From: Candidatus Methanophagales archaeon | Lineage (GTDB): Archaea; Halobacteriota; Syntropharchaeia; Alkanophagales; Methanospirareceae | NCBI GenBank assembly: GCA_028572065.1 | Contig: JAPVWK010000004.1 | Span: 1-38,716, forward strand | Reading direction: 5' to 3' | Length of the DNA stretch: 38,716 bases | Part shown: piece by piece, positions 15,452 through 34,273 of the stretch | Layout: every line of letters begins with the position of its first letter | Position numbering within the stretch: the first letter of the stretch is position 1 | Notes under the pieces: generated by a model | Databases searched by the model: none | Seen by the model: only the letters and a program-made list of their open reading frames with translations | Told to the model about the DNA's origin: nothing | Program-made: the position numbers and the translations under genes

Positions 15452-15594
15452 TATTGTTTAAGCGAGATACAATTATATTTTTAAACGTTAAGCGTAGGAT
15501 AAAAGCAGCAGAACACAACCGCGAAGAATGACCGAATAAAAAGGGCGTTGGAACGCAGAGTAAAAGATTTCAAGGAGCGGACAGACACTTAAAA

Positions 15595-15988: not shown

Positions 15989-16019
15989 AAAAAATAGAAC
16001 AAGGGGTTTTAATCCCCTT
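15989..16019 (-). terminator. Terminator-like hairpin plus T-rich tract downstream of surface cassette A
   Basis: 'aagggg ttttaat cccctt' (16001-16019); on the minus strand followed by 'gttctatttttt'. Equivalent present after cassette B. Confidence 0.5.
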
Positions 16020-16037
16020 AATCACATGCTTTCTCGT

Positions 16038-16913
16038 TTATTCCAACAGTATCGCCGGTAGCCAATCGTAATATCTATTCCCATTCGCATCCACGAACTC
16101 CGTGCAGTTAATTGTACCATTTGCATTCGTAAGCGTTGGCTTGTGTATAACCTGCGGATACGAGCCTGTACGAATAGAGAAGTTATATTGTTCGTCTGCC
16201 ACCAAAGTAAACGGTACCGAGAAGTTGATATACGACCACTCTGCTTCTTGATAGCCCGACCAACTTCCTTCTGCGACTGTGCCGGACACGTTCCAGAGTA
16301 GTACGTGCTCCGAATGCCCGCCTGTGCCTGCACAGGGATACGTGTACAGTTTGTTTACCGTAATCGTTTGTGTTGGCGTGAATGTACCGTTGTGCGTGCC
16401 TGAGATGCTGGGATATGTTCCGGAGCCTGTGTCGAATTTGATTTTTGGTGTTGGCGTCAATGTTGCATGTACGTGAGATGTTCCACCTGCCGTTACCTCT
16501 ACCGAGGTTGACCAATCCTGATAACCAGCAAGAGTGAACTTAATCGTATGGGTACCGGGGGACGTTGTAATCGTGGTTGGTGTTGTTGACATAGGACCAA
16601 CAGCCCTTTCGCCATCTAATTCTATCGCGGCACCAGAAGGTGACGAAGTTATGTGGATAGTGCCGGTTGTAGGTGGTGTATCCACAGAAACCGCCCCGTA
16701 CCAGTATCCTGCACCCATACGGTAGTTACTGCTCTCAGAATACCCGATAACCTGCCCGGTGGTGCTTCTCTGTACGTAGCTGGCAGAATCCATCTGACCA
16801 CCACCACCGCTTAGAACGTGCCAGCTCAGGTCGTAGTTCGTGGATACCTGTGCATATGCGTTGCTCGTGAGACAGAGCAGCCCTACAAGTACCACTACGA
16901 TTTGTTTGTTCAT
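16038..16913 (-). CDS. Secreted PEGA-domain protein with conserved 'GTYPSI.GTHNGTF' C-terminal module (cassette A small gene)
   Basis: Signal peptide 'MNKQIVVVLVGLLCLTSNAYA'; 'GTIHITSSPSGAAIELDGERAVG...GTHTIKFTLAGYQDWSTSVEVTAGG' is PEGA-like; C-terminus shared with the ORFs at 19902 and 24528. Confidence 0.85.
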   Translation of the reverse strand: MNKQIVVVLVGLLCLTSNAYAQVSTNYDLSWHVLSGGGGQMDSASYVQRSTTGQVIGYSESSNYRMGAGYWYGAVSVDTPPTTGTIHITSSPSGAAIELDGERAVGPMSTTPTTITTSPGTHTIKFTLAGYQDWSTSVEVTAGGTSHVHATLTPTPKIKFDTGSGTYPSISGTHNGTFTPTQTITVNKLYTYPCAGTGGHSEHVLLWNVSGTVAEGSWSGYQEAEWSYINFSVPFTLVADEQYNFSIRTGSYPQVIHKPTLTNANGTINCTEFVDANGNRYYDWLPAILLE

Positions 16914-16929
16914 TTTCCCTTTTCCCGTG

Positions 16930-19038
16930 CTATTGCAGCGTGACCAGCACTTCTATCACACCTTTGCCCGAGTCAAGCGGTTCCAGTGCCTTACCGAGGA
17001 TCGTGCCGATCTCGGGGTCTGTCGCTTTCATCGCATGTCCCAGCGTATCCGAAGTTGTGAGCAGGTCGCCTGGCATTATCTGTGCGTAAGTCGCATCTAC
17101 TTTGCATGGCACACGACCTGCGACTGCAATGAGTTTCTCGCCTGCGTTGCCGGTTTCGTTTGTGCCGAGTGAGACGCCGGGTGCCGTGGACACGATGCCT
17201 GCGACTGTGGTGTCGTAAGCTGTGGTGGAGCATTGTAGTTTGCTATCTTCTCCGATGACCATCACGGTGCCGGGTTCGGGGTCTTCGGCAACAGGGAAGT
17301 ACTCGGCTATGTCGGCGCAACCTGTGTCGTAGCTCATGGCGCACATCTTGTCCGGGGTCTTTACGCCATATTTGTGGTCTGATCTGCCGGTAATTGCATA
17401 GATTCCGTCCGATTTAACACTGGATGCAAGAACACCATAGCTGGTGTCGCCAGAGGCAGTTACATGAACACAATTGCTGTTGTCGCCTGTGGTAATTACA
17501 CGAGCTCCAATGCTGTAGTAGCCATCGGTACGTGCAAGAATACCCTTGCTGTAGTCGCCTGAGGTAGATGCATCAATTCCATCGCTGTGGTCGCCAGAGG
17601 TAGATACACGAACTGCATCGCTTTTGTCATAAGTGGTTGTCGCATTCACGCCCTCGGTGGGATTGCTCGATGTTCCACCCTGATTAGTCGTGAAGTATCC
17701 GCCGGACTTGCCTTTTCCGTACACGCCGTAGTCTTTGACACTGTATGCACGAACACCCACGCTGTTTCCGCCCCATGCAGATGCAGAAACGCCATCGCTG
17801 CTGTCGCCAGTGGTATACGCATCAACACCAGGGCTGTTTTCGCCTGTGGTAGATGCTTGAACTCCTAAGCTGTGATCGCCTGAGGTAACTGCATCAACTC
17901 CAGTGCTGTAGTCGCCAGTAGTATGTGCCTGAACACCAGTGCTGTAGTCATAAGCAGTAGTCGCATTCACGCCCGCTGTTTTATCAGACCAGCCGGTTCC
18001 CGCCTGATTTGTCGTGAAGTATCCACCTGATTTGCCTTCTCCGTACACGCCGTAGTGTTTGTCACTGCGTGCCCAAACGCCATCGCTGTTTTCGCCATGG
18101 GTAATTGCCATAACCCCATAACTGTTTTCGCCCATGGTCTGTGCAAAAAACCCATAGCTGTCGTCGCCTGTGGTACTTGCCACAACTCCAAGGCTGTTGT
18201 CGCCCGTGGTACCTGCCACAACTCCAAGGCTGTCGTCGCCCGTGGTATCTACATAAACCCCATAGCTATTGTCACCCGAGGTACGTGCACAAACACCAGC
18301 GCTGTAGTCATAATCAGTTGTCACATTCACGCCCGTAGTCTTATCTTTCCACGATGTTCCACCCTGATTTGTTGTGAAATATCCCCCGTACTTGTCGCCT
18401 TTCCCGTACACGCCTGTGCCACCATCGTTGTTGTAGAAGTATCCACCGTAGCCATCCGGTGACTTCGATTCCCCTACGACCCCGTAGTTAGTACCCGAGG
18501 CTGCAGACGCATAGCCGCGAATGCCGCTGCCAGCAGTATGTGTAGACTCAGCCTGGAGCGCAACAGATGACGCTCCTACGATGTTCGCACCCGGCTTGAG
18601 GCTCAGCGCATACGGCACCGGTCTCAGCTCCTGCCTCGGCGACATCTCTGAATCAATCCCGAGTGTTACCCCAAGCCATAGCCCGCGACCGTCAAAGTAT
18701 TCCGGGTCAAAGTCTATTTCCGTATTGAACAACCCATCGGTAACCTCTACCGCATGCGTATCCGTATCCAGCGCCGTGCCACCGGAAGCGACTTCGTACA
18801 GCCTGAAGGTCATAGTGTATGACCCGCCCAGCGGTTCGCCTGCGCTGTCGGTCAACCTGCCCTGGTAGTTGATGCTCGATGTGGTAACAGCCGAAGCTGC
18901 TACTGTTACACCTTCGCCGTTTTGGTCTACAACTCCACCGTCACCGCCCGCTGCTGCAATTGCAAACGCAAATGCAAGAATTGCTATCGCTGCTATTGCT
19001 CCTATACAAAAAAACATTTTATTCTTGGTTTTATCCAT
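16930..19038 (-). CDS. Large secreted fibre-like protein with 12-residue repeats (cassette A large gene)
   Basis: Signal peptide; 'SINYQGRLTDSAGEPLGGSYTMTFRLYEVASGG...MSPRQELRPVPYALSL' N-terminal module; arrays of 'S.GV.A.T.GD.'; C-terminal 'IAEYFPVAEDPEPGTVMVIGED...LGKALEPLDSGKGVIEVLVTLQ'. Confidence 0.85.
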   Translation of the reverse strand: MDKTKNKMFFCIGAIAAIAILAFAFAIAAAGGDGGVVDQNGEGVTVAASAVTTSSINYQGRLTDSAGEPLGGSYTMTFRLYEVASGGTALDTDTHAVEVTDGLFNTEIDFDPEYFDGRGLWLGVTLGIDSEMSPRQELRPVPYALSLKPGANIVGASSVALQAESTHTAGSGIRGYASAASGTNYGVVGESKSPDGYGGYFYNNDGGTGVYGKGDKYGGYFTTNQGGTSWKDKTTGVNVTTDYDYSAGVCARTSGDNSYGVYVDTTGDDSLGVVAGTTGDNSLGVVASTTGDDSYGFFAQTMGENSYGVMAITHGENSDGVWARSDKHYGVYGEGKSGGYFTTNQAGTGWSDKTAGVNATTAYDYSTGVQAHTTGDYSTGVDAVTSGDHSLGVQASTTGENSPGVDAYTTGDSSDGVSASAWGGNSVGVRAYSVKDYGVYGKGKSGGYFTTNQGGTSSNPTEGVNATTTYDKSDAVRVSTSGDHSDGIDASTSGDYSKGILARTDGYYSIGARVITTGDNSNCVHVTASGDTSYGVLASSVKSDGIYAITGRSDHKYGVKTPDKMCAMSYDTGCADIAEYFPVAEDPEPGTVMVIGEDSKLQCSTTAYDTTVAGIVSTAPGVSLGTNETGNAGEKLIAVAGRVPCKVDATYAQIMPGDLLTTSDTLGHAMKATDPEIGTILGKALEPLDSGKGVIEVLVTLQ

Positions 19039-19100
19039 TTTTAAATCTTCCTCCCATTTTTTTGCTTCTCGCTCCTACCAGCTCTGTCTGTGATGGGCGA
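19039..19100 (-). promoter_or_regulatory. Conserved upstream leader of cassette A including Shine-Dalgarno-like GGAGGAA
   Basis: Minus strand 'TCACAGACAGAGCtGGTAGGAGcGAGAAGCAAAAAAATGGGAGGAA' is nearly identical upstream of cassette B. Confidence 0.5.
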
Positions 19101-19333
19101 TGAGAGAAGTATGAGTATATTGAGATTCATGAGATTTAAATTTTTCGCTAAAAATGAGGCCCCGGCGGTAATTTTAGCTGCAGAAGCGTAGCAGAATTGC
19201 AGAGGCAAGAATTAACTTCTAACAGATATGAGATCAACATAGAGGTTAAGGTAGTAATACTTCATATTCTAGTAATACCATATGTTTCAAGTATTACAAA
19301 ATGTTATTATATTATGAGGTATAGGTGAGAGAG

Positions 19334-19588
19334 ATGGAATCGGCAGTAGTTAAAATAACAAAGAAGGGGCAGGCGACAATACCAAAGAATTTGCGTGAAA
19401 AAATGGGATTCATAGATAGAGCAATCGTGGTAGAGTCAGAGAGGGGCATTTTACTGACGCCATTTCCGGATATTTCTGAAGAGAAGGGCTCACTGCGAGA
19501 GTTATTCAAAGGCAGAACCACGAAAGAAGCTGTAGAAGAAGCAAGAGCGGCTGATATAAGAATAGCGAAGAATCTGGAGCTGAGATAA
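19334..19588 (+). CDS. AbrB/SpoVT-type antitoxin-like DNA-binding protein
   Basis: 'MESAVVKITKKGQATIPKNLREKMGFIDRAIVVESERGILLTP'. Confidence 0.8.
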   Translation: MESAVVKITKKGQATIPKNLREKMGFIDRAIVVESERGILLTPFPDISEEKGSLRELFKGRTTKEAVEEARAADIRIAKNLELR

Positions 19589-19625
19589 AAAGTGCGTAAT
19601 TTGAGAGTATCCCGCCTGAAAATAG

Positions 19626-19802
19626 TTCCTATTTACAGATAATGCGATATGGAAAGAAGCGGGTAAGATAAAGGGGGTGCATACAATATCCCTTGCAGAC
19701 GCATTTGCAGTTGCTACGGCAATAATTAAGTACGATAAGTTAGTTGTTGGGCGAGATGATGATTTTAATAAAGCTGACACGCCATTAATAAAGGTCAGAT
19801 AA
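19626..19802 (+). pseudogene. C-terminal remnant of a PIN-domain toxin
   Basis: Frame read by eye: 'TDNAIWKEAGKIKGVHTISLADAFAVATAIIKYDKLVVGRDDDFNKADTPLIKVR*'; no start codon; TAG at 19623; follows the AbrB-like gene. Confidence 0.65.
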
Positions 19803-19849
19803 AACCTTTCTTAAAAAGAAAGCTTTACCAAAGAAATAATATTCGTTCT

Positions 19850-19883
19850 ATACAAAAATAGAATAAGGGGCTTAAATCCCCCT
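19850..19883 (-). terminator. Terminator-like hairpin plus T-rich tract downstream of surface cassette B
   Basis: 'aagggg cttaaat ccccct' (19865-19883) followed on the minus strand by 'attctatttttgtat'. Confidence 0.5.
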
Positions 19884-19901
19884 ATCCCCCTGTTTTCGCG
19901 T

Positions 19902-20591
19902 TTATTCCAACCGTATAGCAGGCATCCAATCGCTGTATCTTTTCCCATTCGCATCCACGAACTCCGTGCAGTTCATTGTACCATTTGCAGTCGAAAGCGT
20001 TGGACTGTGTATAACCTGCGGATACGAGCCTGTACGAATAGAGAAGCTATATTGTTCGTCTGCTACCAACGTAAACGGTACCGAGAAGTGGATATACGAC
20101 CACTCTGCTTCTTGATAGCCAGCCCAAGTTTCTTCTGCAACTGTGCAGGACACGTTCCAGAATATTACGTGTTCCGAATGCCCGCCTGTGCCTGCACATG
20201 GATACGTGTACAGTTTGCTTACCGTAATCGTTTGTGTTGGCGTGAATGTACCGTTGTGCGTGCCTAAGATGCTGGGATATGTACCGGAGCCAGTGTCGAA
20301 TTTAATTTTTGGCGTTGGCGTTGGCGTTGGCGTTGGCGTTGGCGTTGGCGTTGGCGTTGGCGCAGAAACAGTCCCGTACCAGTATCCTGCACCCATGCGG
20401 TAGTTACTACTCTCAGAAGACCCGATAACCTGCCCGGTGGTGCTTCTCTGTACGTAGCTGGCAGAATCCATCTGACCACCGCCACCGCTTAGAACGTGCC
20501 AGCTCAGGTCGTAGTTCGTGGATACCTGTGCATATGCGATGCTCGTGAGACAGAGCAGCCCCACAAGTATCAACACGATTTGTTTGTTCAT
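19902..20591 (-). CDS. Secreted protein with (TP)n linker and conserved 'GTYPSI.GTHNGTF' C-terminal module (cassette B small gene)
   Basis: Near-identical N- and C-terminal regions to the ORF at 16038; the PEGA region is replaced by 'APTPTPTPTPTPTPTPTPKIKF'. Confidence 0.85.
   Translation of the reverse strand: MNKQIVLILVGLLCLTSIAYAQVSTNYDLSWHVLSGGGGQMDSASYVQRSTTGQVIGSSESSNYRMGAGYWYGTVSAPTPTPTPTPTPTPTPTPKIKFDTGSGTYPSILGTHNGTFTPTQTITVSKLYTYPCAGTGGHSEHVIFWNVSCTVAEETWAGYQEAEWSYIHFSVPFTLVADEQYSFSIRTGSYPQVIHSPTLSTANGTMNCTEFVDANGKRYSDWMPAIRLE
20311..20362 (+). repeat. In-frame hexanucleotide microsatellite (GGCGTT)8 plus GGCG
   Basis: Directly visible; encodes the Thr-Pro linker on the minus strand. 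Confidence 0.98.
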
Positions 20592-20607
20592 TTTTCCTTT
20601 TCCCGTG

Positions 20608-22680
20608 CTATTGCAGCGTCACCAGTACTTCGATTACGCCTGTGCCCGAGTCAAGCGGTTCCAGTGCCTTACCGAGGATCGTGCCTATTTGCGGGTCTGT
20701 CGCTTTCATCGCGTGACCCGGCGTATCCGAAGTTGTGAGCAGGTCGCCTGGCATTATCGGCGCGTAAGTTGCATCTACTTTGCACGGCACACGGCCTGCG
20801 ACTGCAATAAGTTTCTCGCCAATGTTGCCGTCATCGTTTGTGCCGAGTGAGACTCCGGGTGCTGTGGACACGATGCCTGCGACTGTGGTGTCGTAAGCTT
20901 TTGTGGAGCATTGCAGTTTGCTATTTTCTCCGATGACCATTACGGTGCCGGGTTCTGGATCTTCGGCAACAGAGAAGTACTCGGCTATGTCACTACAACT
21001 TGTGTCGTAGCCTTCCCTGGCGCACATCTTGTCTGGAGTCTTTACGCCGTATTTGTGATCTGATTTACCTGTGTCTGCATAGATTGCGTCCGCTTCTGCA
21101 CTATATGCGCGAACTCCCTTGCTGCTGTCTCCTGAGGTATGTATAGAAACTCCATCGCTGTTCTCGCCAGAGGTACGTGCATAAATTCCAAAGCTCTTGT
21201 ATCCCGTGGTATCTACAGAAAATCCATTGCCGTAGTCGCCAATGGTATGTGCACGAACACCATTGCTGTAGTCGCCAGTGGTATGTGCACGAAGTCCATC
21301 GCTGAAGTCATAAGCAGTTGTCACATTCACGCCAGCGGTTTTATCAGACTTGCCCGTTCCACCCTGATTAGTCGTGAAGTATCCACCTGACTTGCCCTTT
21401 CCGTACACGCCGTAGTCTTTGACACTGTATGCACGAACACCCACGCTGTTTTCGCCCCATGCAGATGCAGAAACGCCATCGCTGTCGTCGCCAGTGGTAT
21501 ACGCATCAACACCCGGGCTGTTTCCGCCTGTGGTAGATGCCTGAACTCCTAAGCTGTGATCGCCAGAGGCAACTGCATCAACACCAGTGCTGTAGTCGCC
21601 AGAGGTATGTGCCTGAACACCATAGCTGTAGTCATAAGCAGTAGTCGCATTCACGCCTGCTGTTTTATCAGACCAGCCCGTTCCCGCCTGATTAGTCGTG
21701 AAGTATCCGCCTGATTTGCCTATTCCGTACACACCGTAGTGTTTATCACTGTATGCCCAAATGCCCGGGCTGTTTTCGCCATAGATACTTGCCATAACCC
21801 CGGGGCTATCGTCACCAGAGGTATATGCAAAAACCCCCGAGCTGTTGTCACCCGTAGTAGATGCCTGAACGCCATAGCTGAAATCGCCAGTGGTATAGGC
21901 ACGAACTCCTCTGCTACGGTAGCCAGAGGTAGATGCAGAAACACCATCGCTGTAGTCATAATCAGTTGTCACATTCACGCCTGTAGTCTTATCTTTCCAC
22001 GATGTTCCACCCTGATTTGTTGTGAAATATCCCCCGTACTTGTCGCCTTTCCCGTACACGCCGGTGCCACCATCGTTGTTGTAGAAGTACCCCCCGTAGC
22101 CATCCGGTGACTTCGATTCCCCAATGACCCCGTAGTTAGTACCCGAAGTCGCAGACGCATAGCCGCGAATGCCGCTGCCTGAAGTATGTGTAGACTCAGC
22201 CTGGAGCGCAACAGATGACGCTCCCACGATATTCGCGCCTGGCTTGAGGCTCAGCGCATACGGCACCGGCCTCAGCTCCTGCCTCGGCGACATCTCAGAA
22301 TCAATCCCTACTGTTACCCCAAGCCATAGCCCTCGCCCGTCAAAGTGTTCCGGGTCAAAGTCTATTTCCGTATTGAACAACCCATCGGTAACATCTACCG
22401 CATGCGTATCCGTATCCAGCGCCGTGCCACCGGAAGCGACTTCGTACAGCCGGAAGGTTATTGTGTATGACCCGCTCAACGGCTCGTCTGCGCTGTCGGT
22501 CAACCTGCCCTGGTAGTTGATGCTCGAAGTGGTAACAGCCGAAGCTGATACTGTTACACCTTCGCCGTTTTGCTCTACAACTCCTCCGTCACTACCCGCT
22601 GTTGCAATTGCAAACGCAAATGCAAGAATTGCTATCGCTGCTATTGCACTTATACAAAAAAACCTTTTATTTAAGTTCAT
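20608..22680 (-). CDS. Large secreted fibre-like protein with 12-residue repeats (cassette B large gene)
   Basis: Paralogue of the ORF at 16930; start moved to 'MNLNKRFFCISAIAAIAILAFAFAIATAGSDGG' because the signal peptide begins there. Confidence 0.85.
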   Translation of the reverse strand: MNLNKRFFCISAIAAIAILAFAFAIATAGSDGGVVEQNGEGVTVSASAVTTSSINYQGRLTDSADEPLSGSYTITFRLYEVASGGTALDTDTHAVDVTDGLFNTEIDFDPEHFDGRGLWLGVTVGIDSEMSPRQELRPVPYALSLKPGANIVGASSVALQAESTHTSGSGIRGYASATSGTNYGVIGESKSPDGYGGYFYNNDGGTGVYGKGDKYGGYFTTNQGGTSWKDKTTGVNVTTDYDYSDGVSASTSGYRSRGVRAYTTGDFSYGVQASTTGDNSSGVFAYTSGDDSPGVMASIYGENSPGIWAYSDKHYGVYGIGKSGGYFTTNQAGTGWSDKTAGVNATTAYDYSYGVQAHTSGDYSTGVDAVASGDHSLGVQASTTGGNSPGVDAYTTGDDSDGVSASAWGENSVGVRAYSVKDYGVYGKGKSGGYFTTNQGGTGKSDKTAGVNVTTAYDFSDGLRAHTTGDYSNGVRAHTIGDYGNGFSVDTTGYKSFGIYARTSGENSDGVSIHTSGDSSKGVRAYSAEADAIYADTGKSDHKYGVKTPDKMCAREGYDTSCSDIAEYFSVAEDPEPGTVMVIGENSKLQCSTKAYDTTVAGIVSTAPGVSLGTNDDGNIGEKLIAVAGRVPCKVDATYAPIMPGDLLTTSDTPGHAMKATDPQIGTILGKALEPLDSGTGVIEVLVTLQ

Positions 22681-22745
22681 TTTTTTTATATTATTCCTCC
22701 CATTTTTTTGCTTCTCTCTCCTACCTGCTCTGTCTGTGATAGGAA
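22681..22745 (-). promoter_or_regulatory. Conserved upstream leader of cassette B
   Basis: Minus strand 'TCACAGACAGAGCaGGTAGGAGaGAGAAGCAAAAAAATGGGAGGAA', matching the cassette A leader. Confidence 0.5.
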
Positions 22746-24527: not shown

Positions 24528-27140
24528 TCATTCCAGCTTTATCGCCGGAACACCCTCTTTGTATCTCTTCCCGTTCCCATCTACGAACTCCGAGCAGGTC
24601 ATGAATCCCGTAGGAGTTGACAGATTAGCGGTATGATGAATTTGCGGATACGAGCCGGTTTGGATGGTGTAGTTGTAGGTGTGACCAGCAAGCAATGTGA
24701 CCTGCTCGGGAAATGTTATGCTATGCCAATCACCGTTGTAACCGTCCCATGTGCCACTAACATCCACACTGTCGCCCCATATTCTCACGGATTCGCTGTG
24801 GCCGCCAGTTCCCACGCAGGGATATGTGTACATCTTGCTAACATTGAGATTATCGAACGGCTTGAATGTACCGTTGTGTGTGCCCGAGATGGAAGGGTAG
24901 GTTCCCGGACCTGTATCGAAAATAGTTTCTGCAGATGTGAAGTAAATCTCAAACGGCTTCATCAGCGGATAAATGTCCTTGTCGGAATCTATGGGATAAT
25001 CTGTGTCGCCTATTCCATCATCATTTGCATCTGTTCCGTTGTAATCGTACCAGTAGTTGCCTAAGTAGTTTGTGTGTGTCTTGCCGTTGTATGTGTAGAG
25101 TATTTTTGAGGTGGAGTTCCAGATGTTGGTTGATGCGTAAGTCACAATGTTTTCTCTGTTGTGTATAAAATTGTTAAGGTAGATAATGTTATTGCTTGAT
25201 TCATAGAACGAAATCCCCCTATAATAATTGTGCGAATTGATATTGTTGTTTGATATAACATTGCCAATAGACTTATCGAAGCGAATTCCACAAGGACCAA
25301 AACTAATATTGTTATTTGAGATAGTATTGTTGGAAGCCTCCCTGAGAGATATCCCAACCTTGTTTTTTAATACATTCACGTTTTCTATCCTTGAATTTCT
25401 TGTGTATGCAAATAGAATCCCATCAATATTGTTTGTTAATATCATATCTTTCACCACAATATCCGTGGAATTTATAATGCCAACATAGCCGGCATCCTTT
25501 GGTATTCTTCGATCTCTCTCACCAATCCAGTAATAAATTGGTTTACCATTAACTCTGTTAGTAGTGTCTATATCGTGAATAAAATCAGAAAGTTCAACAC
25601 CCCAAACGCCAAAGTTGTACTCATTTTCTGACATAACATTTTTAGTTAATGTGTTGTTGCTGGAACTCAGAAGTGCAATCCCATCAAAGTTCGTGCTGAC
25701 ATTGTTGTTCGATATGACGTTATTGCTGGAAAAGTGGAGTGAAATTCCAGTGTTAACATTTGAACTAACATTGTTGTTTGAGATAATGTTGCTATTGGAA
25801 TAATACGAGAGACGAATACCATAGTTGTTATTCGTGGCGATGTCATTTAAAATATTGCAATTATTCGTCCCGTTAAGATATATTCCGGCAATACCCCAGA
25901 CCATTTCAGTCGCTCCTGTCAGTGTAACACCAATTATACTCACATAATCCGCAGTCACTTCAAACACATGGTCGCTAGAATTCATCGCCTGAACAATCGT
26001 ATCCGCAGGATTTCCCGAAGTTGACATGACCGTTAAAGACTTGTAAACCTTCACATTCTCTGTATATGTCCCCGCATCCACCGTAATCGTATTCCCATCC
26101 TTTGTATCGGTATCATCAATCGCAGCTTGAATAGTTGCGAAGTTCTCGCCTGTATTCAAGTTGTGAACTCTAAAATACAATCCAATATTCACCGTTGTCT
26201 CATCTGTATGTCCACATCCGTCATCTGCTTTCACCGTATACGTTCCCGCTTGTGCATCCGTTGTATCAATTGTTGCATCAAACGTACCGTCTGTGACCGG
26301 AACGGTCGCGGGGACAAGCTCTTTTGGTCCTTTCACGGTAACAACAATCGTATGCCCATCTTCACAGGTTGTTATACCGCTAACCTCTAAGGGCTCTCCA
26401 ATTCCTACATCAGCGACCGGGTTCAGTTTAACCCCGGTTATCTCATAAGTAACAAACCCCTGCTCTATGCTTTCTTTTGTATTCCCACTCTGGTCAGTGC
26501 TGTTTACAACAAAGTAATAACCAGTGCCTGGCAACAATCCTGTTAGTTCAATAGCATGATTTTTCACAAATAATGAATCCACTTCGCTTTCTGTATAACT
26601 CCCTGATGTTTTACCATATTTCACCAAACTATCAGCAATTTCATCTGTATCCCATTTCAGCGTTGCCGAATTGTTCGTTATCCCTGTTGCGATTACGTTT
26701 GTGATTAGCGGCGATGTAGTATCGTGTATAAGCTCTTTTGGAAAGGTCAAAGCTTCATAACAGTTCGAGTTTGCATGTACAATTGTTATCTTCGGTGGCA
26801 CTTCACCTGTGATATTGGCGAGTCCTGCAGGAATTTCTTTTAGCTCATTGCGGTAAATAGTGTTTGCATATTCTGCCAATAATCTTGGTGTTACGTTAGT
26901 TGTCACGTTAAATAAGTCTGTTGCTGGATTTAAGTTGTTGTGATAGATAGTATTTGCGTATTCTGTTTGTATTCTTGTTTTCACATCGCTTGTAACATTT
27001 GTCAGCTCTTCTGAATATGCGGTAGTAGTATTCCAAATCGTGTCTGCATCTTCGAGGATTATCCGGGAAGCACTAACTGCTGTTATTTGCAGATATAACG
27101 TTAAAACTACAACAAATACGATAAGTGCCTTTGCTCTCAT
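24528..27140 (-). CDS. Secreted surface protein: N-terminal repeats, fibronectin-III-like domain, right-handed beta-helix (NosD/CASH-like), shared 'GTHNGTF' C-terminal module
   Basis: 'TNVIATGITNNSATLKWDTDEIADSLVKYGKTSG...LLPGTGYYFVVNSTDQSGN'; 'NNNVSSNVNTGISLHFSSNNVISNNNVSTNFDGIALLSSSNNTLTKN'; C-terminal 'FDTGPGTYPSISGTHNGTFKPFDNLNVSKMYTYPCVGTGGHSE...AIKLE'. Confidence 0.88.
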   Translation of the reverse strand: MRAKALIVFVVVLTLYLQITAVSASRIILEDADTIWNTTTAYSEELTNVTSDVKTRIQTEYANTIYHNNLNPATDLFNVTTNVTPRLLAEYANTIYRNELKEIPAGLANITGEVPPKITIVHANSNCYEALTFPKELIHDTTSPLITNVIATGITNNSATLKWDTDEIADSLVKYGKTSGSYTESEVDSLFVKNHAIELTGLLPGTGYYFVVNSTDQSGNTKESIEQGFVTYEITGVKLNPVADVGIGEPLEVSGITTCEDGHTIVVTVKGPKELVPATVPVTDGTFDATIDTTDAQAGTYTVKADDGCGHTDETTVNIGLYFRVHNLNTGENFATIQAAIDDTDTKDGNTITVDAGTYTENVKVYKSLTVMSTSGNPADTIVQAMNSSDHVFEVTADYVSIIGVTLTGATEMVWGIAGIYLNGTNNCNILNDIATNNNYGIRLSYYSNSNIISNNNVSSNVNTGISLHFSSNNVISNNNVSTNFDGIALLSSSNNTLTKNVMSENEYNFGVWGVELSDFIHDIDTTNRVNGKPIYYWIGERDRRIPKDAGYVGIINSTDIVVKDMILTNNIDGILFAYTRNSRIENVNVLKNKVGISLREASNNTISNNNISFGPCGIRFDKSIGNVISNNNINSHNYYRGISFYESSNNIIYLNNFIHNRENIVTYASTNIWNSTSKILYTYNGKTHTNYLGNYWYDYNGTDANDDGIGDTDYPIDSDKDIYPLMKPFEIYFTSAETIFDTGPGTYPSISGTHNGTFKPFDNLNVSKMYTYPCVGTGGHSESVRIWGDSVDVSGTWDGYNGDWHSITFPEQVTLLAGHTYNYTIQTGSYPQIHHTANLSTPTGFMTCSEFVDGNGKRYKEGVPAIKLE

Positions 27141-32698: not shown

Positions 32699-34273
32699 TT
32701 ATGCTTCCTTGTGCCGTCTCAAAAGATATGCTACCGTCAACAATCCCGCAATTGCAACTATCGCTTCATATCCTGGTGGAGAAGGTGTTTCTGCAGGTAC
32801 TGACGGTGTAAACGTAGCCGTAGGTATTTCTAATAGCGTTGCCGAAACAGAAGACGTTTCATTTGCTTTTACCACTTTCGTGGCCGTCCAGTTTTCATAG
32901 CCGGTCATTGTCAATCGTAACGAATGGTTACCCGTAGAAACATTGGCAATACTTATCGGGCTAACGCCTTTGTAATCGTCGTCAATGTATATTTCTGCTC
33001 CCGCCGGTGTGGATATTACATCTAAATGCCCTACTTCTTGTGTTAATAGCGGAGTTGCGGGTGTCGGAGATGACACAGGAGTTGGTATTTCCGAAGGTGT
33101 AGCAGTCTGGATAATTGACTCTCCGAGCGTTAAAATGCCTATACTATTGCGTTGGTCTTTTTCCACGCTAAATATGAGCTTAGAGCCGTCTGGACTCCAC
33201 CCTAAATCCGAGAAATAGCCCTTAAATAGTGTTGTCCTTTCTTCGGGGTATAGTTGCACTTTGTTGCTGCCGTTTGCGTCCATTACCCTAATAACACTAT
33301 TCCCTGCACCAGAAATACCTGTTGTGAATGCTATTTCTGTGCCGTTTGGACTCCAGGTAGGATTATTGTAGCTGTAAGCGCTAACATCTGTATAAGGCCG
33401 TGTTTTACTGCCTTGTGTTTGTCCTGTGAGAGACGTTGGATTACTCAAATCAGAATTTACTATCCAAATATCCCAGTTACCGGGTCTATCTCGTTGAGAC
33501 AAGAACAATATTTTCGTGCTATCTGGGCTCCAGTTCGGGTCTTTATCATAGCGATAGTCAATAGAAGTGAGCCTGGGGCGATCTAACTGCCGTGTGTTGC
33601 CACCATTAGAATCCATGATTCGGATATTTGGATTTGCCGTTGCATAAGATACGTAAGCGATTCTCATGCCATCTGGGCTCCACAGGGGCTTATAAATGTT
33701 CCAACCGTATGTTAATTGGGTTTTGTTGCTACCATCTGCATCTATCACCCAGATAGTATTACTGTGCTCCTGGCCTCCTGCTGGATTACGAATACTATAC
33801 GCTATCTGCGTGCCATCGGGACTCCAGGCAGGGTAGTAGCTACATCTGGCGGTTGTTAACCGTGTTTTGTTGCTACCGTCAGAGTCCATCACCCCAATAG
33901 TATTGCTATATCCGGATCTGCCAGTCGGATCGTGGATAATGTAAGCGATTTGCGTGCCATCAGGACTCCATTCTATTCCTGTTACCTTGATGTCAGGATC
34001 CGTTACCTTGAGGTCAACATAAGTTGTTAACTGTGTCTTATTTGTGCCATCAGTATCCATGACCCACACATCTGCTCTTTCGGTGTCGTCCTGGATATAA
34101 GCTATCTGCGTGCTATTAGGACTCCACATTGGAGCATAAGAATTAATGCCGTACCCGGCCATGTGTCCCGCAATGTAATCAAACCCTTCGTTCGTTATAG
34201 TGGCGGATGCCAATCCAAAAGATGCCAACACGATGCATGCAAGACCCAAAATTACAAATATTTTCTTTAACAT
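32699..34273 (-). CDS. Secreted TolB-like beta-propeller plus PEGA domain with PGF-CTERM-like C-terminal anchor
   Basis: Repeated 'WSPDGTQIAYS...IWVIDADGSNKTQLT'; 'GHLDVISTPAGAEIYIDDDYKGVSPISIANVSTGNHSLRLTMTGYENWTATKVVKANE'; C-terminal 'PPGYEAIVAIAGLLTVAYLLRRHKEA'. Confidence 0.92.
   Translation of the reverse strand: MLKKIFVILGLACIVLASFGLASATITNEGFDYIAGHMAGYGINSYAPMWSPNSTQIAYIQDDTERADVWVMDTDGTNKTQLTTYVDLKVTDPDIKVTGIEWSPDGTQIAYIIHDPTGRSGYSNTIGVMDSDGSNKTRLTTARCSYYPAWSPDGTQIAYSIRNPAGGQEHSNTIWVIDADGSNKTQLTYGWNIYKPLWSPDGMRIAYVSYATANPNIRIMDSNGGNTRQLDRPRLTSIDYRYDKDPNWSPDSTKILFLSQRDRPGNWDIWIVNSDLSNPTSLTGQTQGSKTRPYTDVSAYSYNNPTWSPNGTEIAFTTGISGAGNSVIRVMDANGSNKVQLYPEERTTLFKGYFSDLGWSPDGSKLIFSVEKDQRNSIGILTLGESIIQTATPSEIPTPVSSPTPATPLLTQEVGHLDVISTPAGAEIYIDDDYKGVSPISIANVSTGNHSLRLTMTGYENWTATKVVKANETSSVSATLLEIPTATFTPSVPAETPSPPGYEAIVAIAGLLTVAYLLRRHKEA

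Follow-up and report, generated by a model that had tools for sequence, protein, structure and literature searches.

Related Fibre and Anchoring Systems

Among described surface fibres, those of the MAT type, known from Bdellovibrio (PMC10769870; profile NF053851), stand closest to the proteins considered here. According to the available text of that study, MAT fibres are exported and combine a conserved N-terminal domain with a variable shaft and C-terminal tip, S74 serves trimeric fibres as both chaperone and protease, and the surface element that binds the MAT N-terminal domain awaits identification. In cellulosome-type systems, anchoring relies on interchangeable C-terminal docking modules of the cohesin–dockerin and SLH kinds. 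YadA-type trimeric autotransporter adhesins are exported fibres whose shaft consists of beta repeats, analogous to the F proteins described below; however, F lacks a match to the YadA anchor in Pfam, and ANME-1 has no outer membrane. The ANME-1 envelope is itself unexplained, and an S-layer domain has not been recognised there (PMC9012536).

Organization of the Tandem Cassettes

The window, meaning the whole 38,716-nucleotide stretch analysed here, comes from contig JAPVWK010000004.1 of a Candidatus Methanophagales archaeon, a methane oxidiser of the ANME-1 group. Two cassettes lie in tandem on its minus strand, each consisting of a gene for a repeat protein of about 700 aa (F) and, after a gap of 16 bp in both copies, a gene for a small secreted partner (S); this layout and the gap agree with the original prediction. 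The features are as follows.

22694..22739, minus strand: 5' leader of the upstream copy, with a GGAGG ribosome-binding site
20608..22680, minus strand: F2, upstream fibre protein, 690 aa (the ORF ends at 20608, ATG at 22680), with a signal/anchor helix, F_N, a shaft of 12-residue repeats in three blocks, and F_C at the C-terminus
19902..20591, minus strand: S2, partner of F2, 229 aa, with a signal peptide, S_N, a PT-rich linker and S_C
20364..20531, minus strand: S_N of S2, equivalent to that of S1
19854..19884, minus strand: terminator-like hairpin and T-tract 3' of S2
19649..19802, plus strand: truncated VapC-like (PIN) remnant
19334..19588, plus strand: AbrB/VapB-like antitoxin gene between the cassettes, named from its sequence
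19048..19093, minus strand: 5' leader of the downstream copy, a pattern match
16930..19038, minus strand: F1, downstream fibre protein, 702 aa
16038..16913, minus strand: S1, partner of F1, 291 aa, with a signal peptide, S_N, PEGA (Pfam, 8e-14) and S_C
16686..16853, minus strand: S_N of S1, three 19-residue pseudo-repeats
16041..16442, minus strand: S_C of S1, C-terminal, about 134 aa
15989..16019, minus strand: terminator-like hairpin and T-tract 3' of S1
24528..27140, minus strand: NosD/beta-helix surface protein, 870 aa, with a C-terminal S_C at 24531-24926

The leader and the terminator had also been predicted to be duplicated, and this was borne out: the leader pattern has exactly two matches in the whole window against zero expected by chance, and the hairpin with its T-tract follows both S genes. 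The window gives no Rfam match, which means that the leader common to both copies is not one of the known riboswitches. The repeat pattern G..S..[VIFLA].[AV] gives 17 and 14 matches in the window F proteins, each count including one unrelated N-terminal match per protein, and the spacing is mostly exactly 12. PEGA (PF08308) scores 51.8 bits in S1 against a gathering threshold of 20.8 and is absent from S2. Elsewhere in the window (32699-34273), a PD40/PEGA protein has a PGF-CTERM end, so the genome also employs a known archaeal C-terminal anchor signal.

The two F proteins are 84% identical, and the cassettes share about 86% DNA identity over 2.4 kb, rising to 90.6% over the 3' end of S; they differ where S1 has the PEGA domain and S2 the PT-rich linker. 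A separately assembled genome, ANME-1 GoMg2 (G004), has the order F–S–VapB–truncated VapC–F–S; its spacer is 91.8% identical to that of the window over 733 bp, with the VapB-like gene intact and the VapC remnant identically truncated. The chromosomal addresses of the two tandems differ: the window tandem adjoins a glutamine cyclotransferase gene that has its G004 relative on a different contig with no cassette, while the GoMg2 tandem adjoins a 662-aa gene, no counterpart of which was found in the source genome (G000). CSMAG_829 and G003 carry single cassettes at the same two addresses. Given the shared spacer, the differing flanks and these single cassettes, the tandem is either older than these species or was relocated as a block; trees of F_C and S_C from the ANME-1 copies do not resolve the order of duplication and loss. 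F–S–F–S tandems also occur in the Chloroflexota genome G059, and the transcription unit as a whole behaves as something that can be duplicated and moved. In GoMg2, a frameshift affects the second F copy at seven consecutive G (L071, about 15513-15525; C241:25514-25526), a point at which the window has GGTGG; this reflects either a sequencing error or phase variation.

The F–S Gene Pair across Genomes

An F–S pair is defined here as an F_N gene followed by an S_N gene on the same strand, as found at this locus. When the F_N and S_N profiles were run against the same 201 Chloroflexota genomes, 25 of 35 strict S_N matches had a same-strand F_N upstream within 2.4 kb, and none of the 35 had an F_N nearby on the opposite strand. 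Twenty of the 46 F_N matches without a strict S were inspected, and 15 do have S directly downstream; among the other five, three run off the contig, one has S upstream only, and one is a look-alike without a profile match. With a rebuilt S_N profile, S lies directly downstream in 43 of the 45 testable Chloroflexota F_N genes examined. The gaps between F and S are mostly 9–18 bp or a 4-bp overlap. The two domains also diverge together: across 47 pairs, F_N and S_N distances correlate at r = 0.72, and 2000 permutations reached no more than 0.19. Shared ancestry contributes part of this, and the correlation is still present among seven paralogous pairs of one genome (r = 0.62; 21 of 2000 permutations). 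F_N/S_N is thus a near-constant gene pair in Chloroflexota and ANME-1.

The presence of S goes with F_N and not with F_C. Where F lacks F_C, S is retained (L068, L082, L202), and F_C was dropped as the element tied to S because F_C proteins without F_N (Runella, Hymenobacter and Acaryochloris plasmids) have no S_N among the neighbours checked. Among archaea, some F genes lie without an adjacent S_N, as in C57 and at both loci of G005. In G394, from a distant archaeal family, the F_N gene overlaps by 4 bp with a gene for a secreted protein that has S..Y motifs and an EF-hand/dockerin-like end, its match to the S_N profile not being significant. At one locus of an ANME-1 relative (L199:1524-2984), a Peptidase_C10 protease gene lies between F and a dockerin-type S.

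Within the archaeal phylum, 10 of 393 genomes contain F_N, mostly those of ANME-1, as against 23 of 201 in Chloroflexota. The original prediction saw a cassette of a fibre and a small secreted partner built from bacterial-type modules, and named usually unlinked homologues as a finding that would undo it; the 25 strict S_N matches and the 15 seemingly S-less loci are paired, and the linked Chloroflexota homologues support the cassette. As for the inter-domain transfer also proposed, the bacterial relatedness is borne out, and acquisition by import into archaea is only plausible. No description of the F–S pair was found among open-licence papers.

Structure of the F Protein

F has no significant match in Pfam, NCBIfam, PHROGs or the PDB sequences. 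The MAT profile NF053851, which covers an N-terminal domain of about 130 aa, aligns with F_N at the right position with weak scores of 17–22 bits, below the cut-off of 60; the E-values of these sub-threshold matches are 0.0035 and 7.8e-4 for the window F proteins and 8.7e-5 for L082. The C-terminal ends of F vary, being F_C, S74 or others. In contrast to MATs, the window F proteins end in F_C, which has no Pfam match, and lack S74 or an adhesive tip such as TNF or lectin; F also has a dedicated S gene, a partner of a kind that the available text of the MAT report does not describe (PMC10769870).

The S74 chaperone of S74-type MATs is also present in some F proteins of Chloroflexota. All seven checked F proteins that have a membrane tail at the C-terminus contain Peptidase_S74 (L252, L201, two in L205, L249, L251 and L257), and so does the F protein of L259; SDxxxK is present in all six S74-type ends inspected. 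In these Chloroflexota proteins (L201, L205, L249, L251, L252, L257 and L259), a membrane helix and a basic tail follow S74, which makes S74 a candidate membrane-tethered trimerisation chaperone, reminiscent of MYRF. That these F proteins own a membrane tail counts against the need for an adaptor, but the tail lies past the expected cleavage site; a tethered chaperone placed ahead of it would be cut off, and the fibre would then need another anchor.

AlphaFold models from shallow alignments are of low confidence (mean pLDDT 52 for S and 45 for F); the F monomer model has about one strand per 12-residue repeat, and Foldseek with these models gave no usable match. The conclusions on F and S are drawn without them.

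S_N and the Exchangeable Ends of S

Beyond what had been predicted, S too is modular, with a constant first domain and an interchangeable attachment module at the C-terminus. Self-alignment of the S_N profile (68 sequences) peaks at offsets of 19 and 38, corresponding to three pseudo-repeats, with a self-repeat score of 9.8 against a maximum of 9.24 in 1000 column permutations; three repeats opposite a trimer are suggestive only. The window S proteins end in S_C, with PEGA (S1) or without it (S2). Other S proteins end in Dockerin_1 at three archaeal loci (L066, L090, L095), in SLH in G061 (L094, L100, L104), and in a membrane helix with RRQKR in L082; YLPLVL[KR]-type tails occur as well. The short Chloroflexota S proteins, of about 90 aa, contain little besides S_N. 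A [YF]LPL[VI]-type C-terminal tail followed by K/R is seen on most Chloroflexota S proteins and is a possible sorting signal. In comparison with cellulosome-type anchoring, the cargo here would be a fibre held via S_N, and the window S proteins carry S_C instead of dockerin or SLH.

S_C, of about 134 aa, is present in about 40 proteins of the source genome, most of them bearing a signal peptide; it lies within 5 residues of the C-terminus in 31 of 40 and is internal or N-terminal in several. Its host proteins include NosD/beta-helix, PKD, CARDB and cohesin proteins (for example, L006, L166 and L171). There are 19–54 copies per genome across the genus and 11 in G056, and the domain is largely confined to the order. 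Cohesin and S_C are associated in frame in 11 cases in five genomes, a layout that mirrors cohesin–SLH scaffoldins and by analogy resembles that of an anchoring scaffoldin. S_C is a candidate ANME-1 surface-attachment domain. It could instead be a carbohydrate-binding module: DUF4082 (PF13313) resembles S_C weakly in two S proteins (E 0.003; 18.0 bits, below the gathering threshold of 28.4), and ten other S_C proteins have no DUF4082 match.

Proposed Mechanism and Rival Explanations

The reading we favour, with a probability of roughly 60%, is that F forms a trimeric fibre on the cell surface and that S is probably its attachment adaptor, seating the base of F on a lineage-specific envelope anchor. 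F would be exported and build a long, most likely homotrimeric fibre, in which F_N is the base, the 12-residue beta repeats make up the shaft, and the C-terminus supplies a tip or chaperone that varies. S, exported along with F, would bind the F_N base through S_N, possibly as a single copy on each trimer, and the C-terminal half of S would dock the complex to the envelope anchor of the lineage, by S_C in the window and elsewhere by dockerin/cohesin, SLH, a membrane helix or the short YLPLVL[KR] tail. The adjacency of F_N and S_N, in close or overlapping genes of two domains of life, is strong; the contact between the two domains, the trimeric state of F and the role of S_C in binding the envelope are what we infer. 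More tentatively, S_N may be a receptor dedicated to MAT-like trimeric fibres, whose bases it would take up as an adaptor of three repeats serving one trimer, with a swappable anchor in Bacteria and Archaea and with S_C as the ANME-1 envelope-attachment domain; we regard this fuller version as possible and somewhat doubtful.

S might alternatively act on F only transiently, as an export or assembly factor (a chaperone or cap) and not as its anchor. Its gene comes directly after F, it is small in Chloroflexota, and its three repeats could template a trimer, but dockerin, SLH, PEGA and membrane-helix ends would be needless for a transient chaperone, which makes this rather unlikely. It is unlikely, too, that S acts as a further adhesin or binding protein displayed next to F, linked to it by co-expression and not by contact, with S_C and PEGA binding matrix polysaccharide: the DUF4082 similarity and the combination of cohesin with a binding module in scaffoldins would fit, yet what follows F_N through both domains of life is S_N and not the variable end, and the short Chloroflexota S proteins are little more than S_N.

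A domesticated phage tail-fibre remnant is very improbable, since F has no significant PHROGs match and no match in 50,697 phage records, the window holds no recognised tail genes, and both F, with its signal/anchor helix, and its partner are exported; the idea draws on the fibre-like character of F and on the S74 of phage tailspikes. An assembly artefact, which had been named as what could undo the cassette, or a recent neutral duplication might be suspected in a draft MAG of 229 contigs and 83% completeness. This is scarcely credible, however, given the same tandem and identically truncated spacer in the assembly of a second species (GoMg2), copies about 14% diverged in DNA, and the tandems of Chloroflexota G059.

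Significance

Under the favoured adaptor reading, F and S form an inter-domain two-gene module, a MAT-like fibre with an adaptor whose anchor can be swapped. Its recurrence in Chloroflexota with the attachment end of the partner exchanged looks like an undescribed modular fibre mounting and a clear case of modular evolution, in which an exported gene pair has stayed together in both Archaea and Bacteria as its attachment end was replaced. In ANME-1, such fibres would likely, if speculatively, serve adhesion within consortia or to the matrix. S_N offers a concrete candidate for the surface element bound by the MAT N-terminal domain, at least for the Chloroflexota and ANME-1 relatives, and S_C, which each genome of the genus carries on about 20–50 exported proteins and which is found fused to cohesins, may provide a handle on how ANME-1 retains its surface proteins.
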